38,192 nt of DNA. Source: Pseudomonadota bacterium. Its GTDB lineage: Bacteria; Pseudomonadota; Gammaproteobacteria; Acidithiobacillales; Acidithiobacillaceae. Positions within the stretch are counted from its first letter, which is position 1; each line of letters begins with the position of its first letter. This document shows positions 4,093 through 13,443 of the stretch, piece after piece. The position numbers were made by a program, and so were the translations under genes. Location: the NCBI GenBank assembly GCA_021794385.1, contig JAJYQY010000082.1, positions 1 through 38,192 on the forward strand. The letters are read 5' to 3'. The notes under the pieces were generated by a model that saw nothing but the letters and a program-made list of their open reading frames with translations, ran no database searches and was not told where the DNA came from.

Positions 4093-4557
4093 TCACCAGT
4101 GTTTCGCAGCGTCCACGTCCGGTGTTGCCAGGGCGAGTCGGCGCCGCACGCAATCCAGCATGGCCGCAAAATCCGGGGCCGCGCCGTAGCGTTGTGCCTG
4201 CCAGATGGCCTCCCCCAGACATTCGACAAAAAAATGCTGCAGCGCATGTGCCTGGATTTTTTCCAGGGCCTTGGCGTAGAGGGTGGCAATGCCCGCCGGC
4301 TGGTCCAGGGCCAGAAACTCCTCCAGACTCACATGCAGGGCCATATGCATGAAGGGGTTGCTCTGCCCCGCCGCGGGGGGGAAATCCCGATCGAGGACGG
4401 CGTCAGGGCTGGCCAGCAAAGCCTGATATTCGGGGTGACGAAGAATGACCGGCACGATGAGAGCCATCACCCCCGCCAAGGGTCGCCCCTGCTGATATGC
4501 CTCCCAACTATCCACGAATACCTGTCGGTAACTTTCCCGTTTATTGCCATAAAGCAT
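4093..4557 (-). CDS. DUF1841 family protein
   Basis: This is a conserved proteobacterial protein of unknown function. The 154-residue product has the typical DUF1841 form: an N-terminal tyrosine-rich stretch (GNKRESYRQVFVDSWEAYQ), a central NPFMHMALHVSLEEFLALDQP segment and a C-terminal predicted helix. The frame extends 36 codons farther upstream. I take the ATG at 4557 because the family begins right there and the upstream residues look unlike any domain. Shine-Dalgarno support is weak for either start (AGGGCGG lies about 8-14 bases before 4557). It probably heads the transcription unit DUF1841-pepF-fumC(-aroF). No enzymatic motif is visible, so no function is proposed. Confidence 0.82.
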   Translation of the reverse strand: MLYGNKRESYRQVFVDSWEAYQQGRPLAGVMALIVPVILRHPEYQALLASPDAVLDRDFPPAAGQSNPFMHMALHVSLEEFLALDQPAGIATLYAKALEKIQAHALQHFFVECLGEAIWQAQRYGAAPDFAAMLDCVRRRLALATPDVDAAKHW

Positions 4558-4718
4558 GATTATGACCGCCCTGGTGTTTATGGGTTTCATCTTAGGACAG
4601 AAGGGTGCGGGTAGGAAAGTGCCGTTTTTTGTGTTAAATAAGGCAACACTCGGAAACAAATCCATCGTAATTAAAAGTATTTATCGCAACATTTATTTCT
4701 GCGGGAGATCAGTGCGTC

Positions 4719-9737: not shown

Positions 9738-11126
9738 ATGGAAATGGGATTTTTTGGCGCGGCAGGCGGTGTAACCGGGTCCTGCCACTTCCTCGCCGCC
9801 GCAGGGAAAAAGATGCTCGTCGATTGCGGCATGTTTCAGGGCGAGCACAACATCGACGAGGAAAACCGCGCCGACTTCGGCTTTGATCCCGGCGAGATCG
9901 ACGTTCTCCTCCTCACCCATGCCCACCTCGACCATTGCGGACGCATCCCGCTGCTGGTCAAGCGCGGTTTTCGCGGAGAGATCATCACCACCGCCGCCAC
10001 CCGCGAGCTCACCCGCCTGGTCCTCCTCGACGCCGCCGGACTGGCCGCCGAAGAAGCCCGCCGTGCGGCGCGCTACCGCCAGCGCCGTGGAGAAGAACCC
10101 GAAGCGCCCCTCTATGAAATCACCGACGTGCTCGACAGCATGGATCGTTTCGGGCGGGTGGCGAACTATGGCGAAGCGCTGATCGTCGCCCCGGGGATCA
10201 CGGTGACCTTTGGTGACGCCGGGCATATCCTCGGCTCCGCCTGGATCCTCGTGGAGGCCCAGGAGGGCGAGCGTAACAAGCGCATTCTCTATTCCGGAGA
10301 TCTGGGCAATCGCGGCAAGCCCATCATCAACGCCGCCATCCCAGCGCCCTCCGCGGATGTGGTGGTCATGGAAACCACCTACGGTGACCGCCTGCACAAG
10401 GCCGTTGGACCATCGGTCGAGGAGCTCCGTGATGCCATCCTCACCACCCTGGAGCGCGACGGGAACGCCATCATCCCCACCTTTGCCCTGGAGCGCGCCC
10501 AGGATCTCCTGTACTACCTGCGGGAACTGACGGAAAAACGGGAGCTCCCCGCCAATCTTCCCATTTTCCTGGACTCGCCCATGGCCATTTCCGCCACGGA
10601 GATCTTCCGCCGTCACCCCGAATGCTTCAATGCCGAAACGCGCGAGAATTTCGCCAGTGGCCGCGACCCCTTTGCCCTGCGCAACCTGCATTTCACCCGG
10701 GAAACCAGCGAATCCATGGGCATCAACCAGATCAAGGGCGGCGCCGTCATCATGGCCGGCTCGGGCATGGCCACCGGGGGACGGGTCACCCATCACTTGA
10801 AGCACAACCTCTGGCGGCGCGACAGCAGCGTCATCTTCGTGGGCTATGCCGCCCAGGGAACGCTGGCCCGGCGCATCATTGATGGGGCGGAAAAAGTGCG
10901 GCTCTTTGGTGAAGAGATCAGCGTGAATGCCCGGATCTACACCATCGGCGGCTTTTCCGCCCATGCCGATCACGACGAACTCCTCGCCTGGTACGGTGTG
11001 CAAAAACCGGAGCACACCTTCCTGGTGCATGGCGAAGACAACGGCCGTCAGGGCATTGCCCAGGTCCTTGAGGGGCGTGGACTCCGGGTGCACCTGCCGG
11101 TCATCGGCGATCGTTATCCCCTGTAA
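9738..11126 (+). CDS. Metallo-beta-lactamase / beta-CASP family ribonuclease
   Basis: The 462-residue protein belongs to the beta-CASP RNA-processing nucleases (CPSF73/YSH1-like bacterial branch), which use two zinc ions to cut RNA. The metal site HAHLDH is at residues 61-66; further ligand regions are DAGHILGSAW, YSGDLGNRG and the C-terminal GGFSAHADHDEL and FLVHGE. The beta-CASP insert in the middle includes ETTYGDRLH, IPTFALERAQ and AGSGMATGGR. Length and motif order match the family throughout. AAGGAG lies 6 bases before the ATG. It follows glgA by 15 bases and so is probably co-transcribed, although a direct link between RNA turnover and glycogen is not evident. Confidence 0.92.
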   Translation: MEMGFFGAAGGVTGSCHFLAAAGKKMLVDCGMFQGEHNIDEENRADFGFDPGEIDVLLLTHAHLDHCGRIPLLVKRGFRGEIITTAATRELTRLVLLDAAGLAAEEARRAARYRQRRGEEPEAPLYEITDVLDSMDRFGRVANYGEALIVAPGITVTFGDAGHILGSAWILVEAQEGERNKRILYSGDLGNRGKPIINAAIPAPSADVVVMETTYGDRLHKAVGPSVEELRDAILTTLERDGNAIIPTFALERAQDLLYYLRELTEKRELPANLPIFLDSPMAISATEIFRRHPECFNAETRENFASGRDPFALRNLHFTRETSESMGINQIKGGAVIMAGSGMATGGRVTHHLKHNLWRRDSSVIFVGYAAQGTLARRIIDGAEKVRLFGEEISVNARIYTIGGFSAHADHDELLAWYGVQKPEHTFLVHGEDNGRQGIAQVLEGRGLRVHLPVIGDRYPL

Positions 11127-11167: not shown

Positions 11168-11216
11168 CAGCGGACGCCACCTATACGTACCGAGCGATAC
11201 ACCTTCAGGAGGAGTC

Positions 11217-11633
11217 ATGGCAGGACATTTTCCCTTTTCCGGTAAAGCCAATCGCATTTCGGTTTACGCCTTCTTCGAGGCGCATAACTGGAGTCTGGAT
11301 GCCCAGGAAAAATATTACGAACTCTGGTATCAGTGGACCAAAGACTTTGTCATGAAAGACCCCGACCTGCTGGCCAGCAAGGGTCCGCTTTTCAAAGGGG
11401 ACATCTTCGGGCAGCACGCCGATCACAACTTCCACCTCCATGACTATATCTGGGCGACTCAGCTTTTGGATCTCGGTGAATTCATCAAAGGCAGCATCAT
11501 GCCCAAACTGAGCCATGATGCCCTGCACACCCTGGAACATCTGCACGAGGGCTGGATTGCCGCGGCCGATGCCGTCGCTACCGCCCATCCCCGCCCCGCG
11601 GCGCCGGAAATCGGCCGCTATCGCCACGTTTAG
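11217..11633 (+). CDS. Histidine- and aromatic-rich soluble protein of unknown function
   Basis: I do not recognise this 138-residue protein. It has no signal peptide or membrane span, no cysteine, and twelve histidines. Eight of these form two clusters: His67, 70, 73 and 75 (in GQHADHNFHLHDY) and His100, 104, 108 and 110 (in SHDALHTLEHLHEGW). The second has helical 4-residue spacing, and acidic residues (Asp62, Asp69, Asp76, Asp101, Glu107, Glu111) lie nearby. This layout would suit a metal centre between helices, but no named family was recognised. The N-terminal half is aromatic (YYELWYQW around 33-40). An excellent AGGAGG precedes the ATG by 4 bases. It stands alone, with a possible promoter before it and a terminator-like hairpin after it. 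Confidence 0.85.
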   Translation: MAGHFPFSGKANRISVYAFFEAHNWSLDAQEKYYELWYQWTKDFVMKDPDLLASKGPLFKGDIFGQHADHNFHLHDYIWATQLLDLGEFIKGSIMPKLSHDALHTLEHLHEGWIAAADAVATAHPRPAAPEIGRYRHV

Positions 11634-11648
11634 GGACCCGCCAGCAGA

Positions 11649-11682
11649 GGACGAAGGCGCCACATCGGGGCGCCGTCCCTTT
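11649..11682 (+). terminator. Terminator-like hairpin after the histidine-rich gene
   Basis: GGCGCC (11656-11661) pairs with GGCGCC (11669-11674), extended by GGAC with GTCC across a 3-base bulge, and is followed by CTTT. The T-run is short, so termination strength is uncertain. Confidence 0.4.
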
Positions 11683-11725
11683 GGCGTTGCTTTGGATTCG
11701 GCAGTTGCTGGGGCGTTTTCGGTGT

Positions 11726-12373
11726 ATGGATAGCCAACGCATTACCGCCTGCTTCACCGCCCTCAGCGCGGCGATTCCCCAGCCCAAAACGGAACTGCAC
11801 TACCGCAGCCCCTTTGAGTTGCTCGTTGCCGTGCTGCTCTCGGCGCAAAGCACCGACCGCGCCGTCAACCTCGCCACCCCATCCCTCTTTGCCGCCGCCC
11901 CGACACCCGCCGCCATGGTGCAACTCGGGGAAGCGGGCATAAAAACCCACATTCGCCATCTCGGGCTCTTCAACAACAAGGCCAGGCACCTCTACGCCCT
12001 GGCACAATTACTCGTCACCCGGCATGGCGGCGAGGTACCCGGCGACCGCGAATCGCTGGAAGCCCTCCCGGGCGTCGGGCGAAAAACGGCCAACGTCATT
12101 ATGAACACCCTCTTTGGCGCCCCCACCATTGCCGTCGATACCCACATCTTTCGGGTAGCCAATCGCACCGGGATCGCTCCGGGCAAAACGCCGCTGGCCG
12201 TCGAAAAGGCCCTGCTGCGCGCGGTGCCCGATGCCTTTCGGCAGGATGCCCATCACCTGCTCATCCTCCACGGCCGTTACACCTGCATGGCCCGCCGCCC
12301 CCACTGCGGCCGCTGCCCCCTATTCTCCTGCTGTGCATGGCCGGAAAAGCAGCAGTGGGCCGAGCACCGTTAA
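11726..12373 (+). CDS. nth: Endonuclease III (DNA glycosylase / AP lyase)
   Basis: Nth removes oxidised pyrimidines from DNA and cleaves the abasic site in base excision repair. The 215-residue product aligns along its whole length with E. coli Nth. Visible are SPFELLVAVLLSAQSTD, the helix-hairpin-helix LPGVGRKTANVIMN holding the catalytic Lys, and VDTHIFRVANR holding the catalytic Asp. The C-terminal [4Fe-4S] site is in CMARRPHCGRCPLFSCC with C-x6-C-x2-C-x5-C spacing. The frame is open 15 codons upstream, but the ATG at 11726 matches the E. coli start; its ribosome binding site is weak. The 3' end overlaps the FIST gene by 37 bases. Confidence 0.95.
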   Translation: MDSQRITACFTALSAAIPQPKTELHYRSPFELLVAVLLSAQSTDRAVNLATPSLFAAAPTPAAMVQLGEAGIKTHIRHLGLFNNKARHLYALAQLLVTRHGGEVPGDRESLEALPGVGRKTANVIMNTLFGAPTIAVDTHIFRVANRTGIAPGKTPLAVEKALLRAVPDAFRQDAHHLLILHGRYTCMARRPHCGRCPLFSCCAWPEKQQWAEHR

Positions 12374-13443
12374 GACCCGTCAGCACCGGCTTGGCCATCG
12401 GCCCCCAGGCACCCCAGGAGCTCCTGCATCGCGCCCTGGACCGGGCCGTCCCCAAGCTGGCGGGGCAACCGGTCAGTGCCGCCCTCTGCTTTTTCAGTCC
12501 CACCCTCGCCCAGATCGCCCCTGAGGTCATCCGACAGGTCATGCGCCAACTCGCCTGTCTGCGCCTCCTGGTGGCCACGGTCCCCGGCGTGATCACCGAG
12601 GAGGGCTATGCCATTGGTGAAAACGCCTGTGCCGTCATGCTCCTGGCACCGCCTTTCGGACTTTCGCCGGTCACGGACCAGGTTCAAGGCCAGGCCATCC
12701 TGAGCATGGCCCGTCGGGAACAATGCCACGACGCCTGGCTGCAACGCGCTCCGCGCATGGGCTTTCTCGGCGGTCGCGGCACCCGCTTCTGGCAAAACGC
12801 CCAACCCCTCCCGGGGCCCTGCGAGGCCCTGGTGGAGGGCGCCGCCAGTCCCCAAGCAGCCTATTCGCCCGGCATTCGCCCCCTCCATGCCCCTTTGGCG
12901 GTGAGCCTGCAGGAAGGCAATCTGCTGCTGCGGCTGGAGCGCTATTCAGCGTTGCCTTTGCTGGCCCAAAACCTGCCCTTCAGTATCCGGGAAGAGGGCC
13001 GCCTCCCCCTGGAACGCCTGCTGGTGGGCGAACTGCGGCCCGGGCAATCCTCCGCAGTACCGCCGCAATGGATCAACATTCGCGCCACCGATCTCAATCG
13101 CAGCGGTCTCTGGCTGGAGCGTAGCCTGGCCGCCGATGCCCGCGCTTTTTTTGCCCTACGCGATCCCCAGGTCGCCGAGCGGGATACCCGCATCGCCCTC
13201 GGCGCCGCCCGGGCCGGCCAGGCGGCACCGGCTTTTGCCTGGGTTTTTTCCTCCGTGGGCCGGGATGGTGCGTTTTTCTCCGGCAGCGACCGCGATCACG
13301 CCCTCTGGCAGGAATTTTTCCCCGGCGTTCCGTGCATCGGTGCCTACGGCCTGGCCGAACTAGCCCCCATACAGGATGAAAACCGGATTTTACGTTATAG
13401 TAAGGCGTTTTACTTATTCTCCGCGCAGACGGAGCACGGTTAA
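12337..13443 (+). CDS. FIST-domain protein (FIST N plus FIST C)
   Basis: FIST proteins are predicted ligand-binding sensory modules, thought to bind small molecules such as amino acids, and often occur with signalling domains. Here the 368-residue protein consists only of the sensor parts. The N-terminal FIST domain (about 20-190) includes SAALCFFSPTLAQ and MRQLACLRLLVATVPGVITE. The C-terminal domain (about 220-350) includes AFAWVFSSVGRDGAFF and FFPGVPCIGAYGLAELAPI, close to the family's F-S-C-x-x-R and G-x-x-x-x-G-E-I pattern. No kinase, cyclase or chemotaxis domain is attached. The ATG at 12337 overlaps nth by 37 bases and lacks a clear ribosome binding site; GTG at 12355 is an alternative. 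The stop is 13 bases before the L,D-transpeptidase start. Confidence 0.78.
   Translation: MAGKAAVGRAPLRPVSTGLAIGPQAPQELLHRALDRAVPKLAGQPVSAALCFFSPTLAQIAPEVIRQVMRQLACLRLLVATVPGVITEEGYAIGENACAVMLLAPPFGLSPVTDQVQGQAILSMARREQCHDAWLQRAPRMGFLGGRGTRFWQNAQPLPGPCEALVEGAASPQAAYSPGIRPLHAPLAVSLQEGNLLLRLERYSALPLLAQNLPFSIREEGRLPLERLLVGELRPGQSSAVPPQWINIRATDLNRSGLWLERSLAADARAFFALRDPQVAERDTRIALGAARAGQAAPAFAWVFSSVGRDGAFFSGSDRDHALWQEFFPGVPCIGAYGLAELAPIQDENRILRYSKAFYLFSAQTEHG

Follow-up and report, generated by a model that had tools for sequence, protein, structure and literature searches.

A small, histidine-rich open reading frame lies immediately upstream of nth, the gene for endonuclease III, in the 38,192-nucleotide stretch of DNA analysed here (the window). 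This locus raises three questions: whether the reading frame is a gene, whether its histidines form a metal site, and whether its place beside a DNA repair gene reflects function or inherited order.

A 138-residue protein and its relatives

The initial annotation of the window described a 138-residue product with 12 His and no Cys, and translation of the frame gives exactly that. The excess of His over a mean of 2.5% in 30 other window intervals, hand-chosen as likely genes, has a binomial P of 2e-4, uncorrected for the number of features that might have been singled out. The open reading frame is a real gene, with purifying selection acting on the sense frame. Compared with its nearest relative (L002, from A. 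sulfuriphilus, 90% identical), the sense frame has a dN/dS of 0.23, and six further pairs range from 0.00 to 0.23. An antisense open reading frame (11205-11663) was rejected; its dN/dS against L002 is 0.64, and L002 carries a stop in it. Of the expression signals proposed earlier, the strong AGGAGG ahead of the ATG can be read directly (Table 1), and most of the 59 loci described below have an AGGAG-like sequence before the corresponding ATG. The hairpin after the gene is also present but weak, three such sites having been found in the region against 0.9 expected. With this terminator-like site lying between them, co-transcription of the gene with nth in the window is not assured. A promoter of its own, which had been thought possible, found no support, as the searched region around the gene contains no sigma-70-like site.

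Table 1. Features of the window discussed in the text
Feature	Position	Strand	Basis or remark
138-residue histidine-conserved protein, unnamed family	11217..11633	+	Open reading frame, relatives, purifying selection, two AlphaFold2 models
Shine-Dalgarno AGGAGG of the gene	11207..11212	+	Direct reading, just before ATG
Codons M-A-G-H, possible ATCUN (NH2-X-X-His) after Met removal	11217..11228	+	Motif in 59/59
G-[QT]-H-x4-F-H-L loop (G65, H67, F72, H73, L74, H75)	11409..11441	+	All but H75 invariant in 59/59
Final helix (residues 100-123), carrying His104 and His110	11514..11585	+	Predicted helix in both models
C-terminal Y-R-H-V	11619..11630	+	R136 and H137 invariant in 59/59
Terminator-like hairpin between gene and nth	11669..11688	+	Weak
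nth, endonuclease III ([4Fe-4S] DNA glycosylase/AP lyase)	11729..12373	+	Pfam HhH-GPD and HHH
Beta-CASP/RMMBL metallo-beta-lactamase RNase	9738-11126	+	Directly upstream of the gene
Gene after nth	12391-13443	+	Sub-threshold FIST_C match only, E 0.0007
DUF1841 protein	4093-4665	-	PF08897, E 7e-45

Relatives were found at 27 loci in the named genome collection, mostly in Acidithiobacillus or Igneacidithiobacillus, with five more distant loci from MAGs (L023-L027). Together with 18 and 13 members from further genome searches and the window protein itself, the family as counted here comprises 59 members. All 31 genomes of the window's order carry the gene, each in a single copy, as do 21 of the 57 from a second order (that of genome G428). 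With a wider profile, 369 genomes sampled from the class yielded 18 carriers, 14 of these being new, while the phylum sample returned a single carrier among 398 genomes, namely the window's own, by the narrow and wide profiles alike. By these counts, every genome of one order carries the family, and its distribution across the rest of the class is patchy. Enlarging the search in the order of genome G711 (three genomes) added no new member. A mobile or phage origin was rejected, as viral contigs hold no relatives and plasmids gave one chance match at an E-value of 10. Members are 138 to 145 residues long, and the most divergent are 30-32% identical to the window protein. Following the PF motif, several (L099 and L102-L108) have an R-, G- and Y-rich insertion of six or seven residues, such as RGxRYGLAP.

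The initial annotation did not recognize the family, and profile searches likewise gave no credible name. Matches to Pfam, NCBIfam, PHROGs and PADLOC were not credible for the family as a whole: the best Pfam value was 0.0088, in single or few members only; the best PADLOC value was 0.0044, for Cas8b in 1 of 31 members; and the best PHROGs and NCBIfam values were 0.052 (1 of 28) and 0.076 (1 of 34), respectively. A sequence search of the PDB returned nothing for the single protein, and three alignments gave best E-values of 0.21 to 0.81, which we judge to be chance; a designed di-Zn protein, matched at 0.81, was discarded on the same grounds. The product is a cytosolic, Cys-poor, mainly helical protein with no apparent export signal, and it forms an unnamed gammaproteobacterial family.

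Neighbouring nth and Rnf genes

At all 59 loci the gene is followed directly, on its own strand, by nth, a tie that the initial annotation had missed. The match to nth starts 10 to 125 bases past the stop codon, and the adjacency extends to the members 30-32% identical to the window protein. It covers 11 families of the class sample as well as the second order, and the outer flanks vary. These nth genes look functional, judging from their motifs: the C-x6-C-x2-C-x5-C pattern of the Fe-S cluster and the Lys motif of the helix-hairpin-helix are each present in 57 of 59, and VDTH in 58. The two exceptions to the Fe-S motif are L004, whose sequence contains Ns, and L108. In the case of L108 (G822 C1:658762-659331, a single contig), nth has one in-frame TAA next to an intact neighbour gene; sequencing error, recent decay and recoding are possible causes.

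The association is a one-way rule, in that nth often occurs without the gene, whereas the gene was never found without nth among loci with flanking sequence. To illustrate, all 21 carriers in the second order have an nth above cut-off adjoining the gene, and such an nth is also present in 31 of the 36 non-carriers. These counts, and the gene's rarity in the class sample (18 of 369) and the phylum sample (1 of 398), show that Nth can in general do without it. Of the five genomes of the second order that have no canonical nth, two (G440 and G445) are listed among the carriers yet lack the gene as well, which may reflect co-loss or an assembly gap. We regard the family and its obligate linkage to nth as nearly certain.

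Gene neighbourhood is not interaction, however, and a fixed gene block passed on by vertical descent would look no different. Identity distances of the protein and of Nth are strongly correlated (Mantel r = 0.80, with none of 2000 permutations as high), but this is expected of joint vertical descent and of a functional link alike, and so cannot tell them apart. Plain inherited gene order is therefore a serious rival. On that account the protein would be an enzyme or structural protein whose invariant His, Glu, Asp and Arg residues act without metal, and nth would be its neighbour by chromosome order only. The Mantel correlation suits such descent, and the strong tail motifs, the invariant aromatic residues and the lack of any Foldseek match in the PDB at an E-value below 2 are in keeping with a metal-free protein. 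Nevertheless, adjacency in 59 of 59 loci, across 11 class-sample families and a second order with variable outer flanks, is in our judgement more than chromosome order usually keeps, and we hold this account to be somewhat unlikely.

The rnf-nth block itself is already known: an excerpt of one source (PMC2907692) lists nth of E. coli as one unit with rsxABCDGE, and an excerpt of another (PMC4014512) refers to an earlier proposal of endonuclease III as an extra Rnf component. The loci L100 and L099 reprise this block, with Rnf genes followed by nth, but place one added gene between rnfE and nth; the order, read by eye, is rnfB-C-D-G-E-gene-nth-DUF1841, of which RnfB, RnfE and DUF1841 of L100 were confirmed by Pfam. 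As far as we could check, this conserved extra member is apparently undescribed. Our search of the open-licence literature found no paper on the gene, which is not proof of absence. The proposed extra Rnf subunit RnfH (an excerpt of PMC4014512) is likewise a small protein encoded beside rnf genes.

Could the protein then be an accessory of the Rnf complex, serving in assembly or cofactor delivery, with its place before nth a leftover of the rnf-nth operon? The gene sits directly after rnfE in L100 and L099, and of the 12 carriers with RnfD, 10 encode it no more than about 2 kb upstream of the gene. RnfB-like ferredoxin genes stand alone just upstream of the gene-nth pair at L081 (2913-3545) and L105 (3633-4487), in genomes without RnfD, which would fit an Rnf origin; an RnfB remnant tied to nth may merit study in its own right. 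General co-occurrence with the Rnf complex, on the other hand, was not found. RnfD (TIGR01946) is present in 12 of 66 carriers, and unlike E. coli, most carriers lack it but retain the gene, intact and under purifying selection, together with nth. The 54 carriers without RnfD include all 29 members of the window's family, and indicate that the link is to nth and not to Rnf. In the second order, RnfD occurs in none of the 21 carriers versus 6 of the 36 non-carriers. Moreover, in genomes G706 and G597 over 50 kb of contig separates RnfD from the gene, which is still beside nth. An Rnf accessory is accordingly quite improbable.

In the window and many relatives the order is glgA-beta-CASP RNase-gene-nth, with glgA named by eye. 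The RNase gene is missing from this upstream site in a subset of relatives, where glgA adjoins the gene instead. A homologue of the gene that follows nth in the window occupies the same place in most loci. A DUF1841 homologue lies just 3' of nth, or of the next gene, in many relatives (L100, L099, L109 and L081, for instance), and the window's copy is some 7 kb off, on the opposite strand.

Invariant residues and predicted fold

Seventeen residues are invariant in the 59 members (M1, H4, P6, F7, R13, E21, Y33, L51, G65, H67, F72, H73, L74, L86, G87, R136 and H137), four of them His, two of which stand near the ends of the chain, and position 85 is Asp or Glu throughout. His104 and His110 are each found in 54 of 59, and at least one of the two is His in every member. 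The remaining histidines are less constant: His75 is kept in 47 members, His23 and His108 in 34 each, His70 in 33, His124 in 24 and His100 in 21.

The initial annotation had drawn a metal centre formed jointly by His67/70/73/75 and His100/104/108/110, and had named conservation of these eight His as decisive. All eight occur together in 15 of 59 members, every one from the window's order. The first cluster is complete in 22 members and the second in 15; the His100/104/108 triplet, whose i, i+4, i+8 spacing had been offered as a site, is likewise kept in 15, with His70, His100 and His108 the variable positions. The prediction of a helix over residues 100-123 is in its favour. Nevertheless, the eight-His centre is largely refuted family-wide and, as a common site, very improbable; it may be an extra site peculiar to one lineage. 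What survives of the proposal is the more general idea of a His-based site. The initial annotation had overlooked the invariant His4, His137, Glu21 and Asp/Glu85. Every one of the 59 members has these residues as well as His67 and His73, which makes a conserved His-based site plausible. The combination of invariant His and acidic residues with an absence of Cys suggests metal binding or catalysis, and we put a metal site at an even chance.

AlphaFold2 models of two members, the window protein and L025 (28 sequences each), agree on helices at residues 13-22, 27-47, 49-59, about 79-97 and 100-123, with a mean pLDDT of 80-81 and a pTM of 0.77 in both. Confidence is low at both tails and in residues 60-80, which is where the four invariant His are located. 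The second His cluster had been placed on a predicted helix, in agreement with both models. On that helix His100, His104 and His108 would share a face, and His104 and His110 would be about 120 degrees apart (ideal helix, 100 degrees per residue), so the latter two need not bind the same metal. RnfH is a beta-grasp protein, unlike the window protein, which is helical in both models.

Comparison of the models with known folds gave no clear counterpart. Foldseek against the PDB returned a best E-value of 2.1 for the first model and nothing for the second, and the viral structure library gave a best of 4.5 for the second model, which is not meaningful. VIA-align found nothing for the first model; for the second its best match, the Set2 SRI domain (Z 3.6 over 71 residues, rmsd 4.2), was judged not meaningful. 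As helical bundles are concerned, a missing fold counterpart is weak evidence. Hemerythrin-like and other helical-bundle metal proteins are helical with conserved His and acidic residues, as the models suggest here. No hemerythrin model appears among the Pfam matches of the scanned members, nor do Foldseek or VIA-align list such a fold, which excludes nothing. Metallochaperones of the HypB, SlyD and Hpn type are a different case. They carry runs of consecutive His; the translation of the window protein lacks even a single HH pair.

All 59 members start with M-[SA]-[GA]-H (Ser in 42 and Ala in 17 at position 2; Gly in 58 and Ala in 1 at position 3; His throughout at position 4), and the same motif is found in six non-identical members outside the alignment and in one truncated member. 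A small second residue permits removal of Met, and the mature chain would then have His at position 3, in the NH2-X-X-His pattern of ATCUN sites. The start codon is credible, since a Shine-Dalgarno-like sequence accompanies it in most loci and 29 of the 59 have no alternative start codon before the upstream in-frame stop. The other 30 have an in-frame start or an open frame further upstream, and a longer start is possible; in L035 and its like, a Shine-Dalgarno-like sequence lies inside a possible five-codon extension.

An ATCUN site for Cu(II) or Ni(II) would make the protein a cytosolic copper or nickel buffer or sensor protecting the adjacent [4Fe-4S] enzyme. The constancy of the motif, including in the extra and truncated members, argues for this, as do the 29 loci with one possible start and the very low model confidence of the N-terminal tail, as expected of a free ATCUN. 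Yet His4 may serve folding or another site, with P6 and F7 equally invariant; a longer start is possible in the 30 other loci; and the cytosol is reducing, with little free Cu(II). Albumin, the histatins and human Ctr1 share the NH2-X-X-His pattern and are extracellular, whereas the present family is bacterial, without apparent export signal, its metal binding putative. We consider such a buffer or sensor unlikely. The fuller version, in which an nth-linked family uses the invariant N-terminal motif together with the loop and C-terminal His to guard or tune the [4Fe-4S] cluster of endonuclease III, is more doubtful still than the Rnf accessory considered above; if true, a base-excision repair enzyme would have a metal or redox partner of its own, linked at first to electron supply by Rnf and later independent of it.

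A putative accessory of endonuclease III

The explanation that we prefer, tentatively, is a small helical, putatively metal-binding accessory of endonuclease III or of its Fe-S redox maintenance. The invariant His4, His67, His73 and His137, with Glu21, Asp/Glu85 and His104 or His110, would form a site, closed off by both conserved tails, that binds a metal or catalyses a reaction. As an accessory dedicated to Nth, the protein would most likely keep the enzyme or its [4Fe-4S] cluster metal- and redox-competent, a role that may once have been fed by Rnf and been retained after Rnf was lost. Its fixed place beside nth and its retention after Rnf loss suggest that it serves endonuclease III and not Rnf. 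That the protein acts upon or together with Nth or the Fe-S cluster of Nth is an extrapolation from gene neighbourhood, which we hold slightly more loosely than the explanation as a whole. The L108 carrier, with its stop in nth beside an intact gene, counts against a role with Nth.

Why nth ends the Rnf/Rsx operon, and what cellular role the redox state of its [4Fe-4S] cluster plays, are the questions that this gene addresses. A small protein encoded between rnfE and nth, and kept after the loss of Rnf, offers a direct genetic handle on both. The gene is present in all 31 searched genomes of the order that holds the Acidithiobacillus species, which live under heavy metal and oxidant stress.
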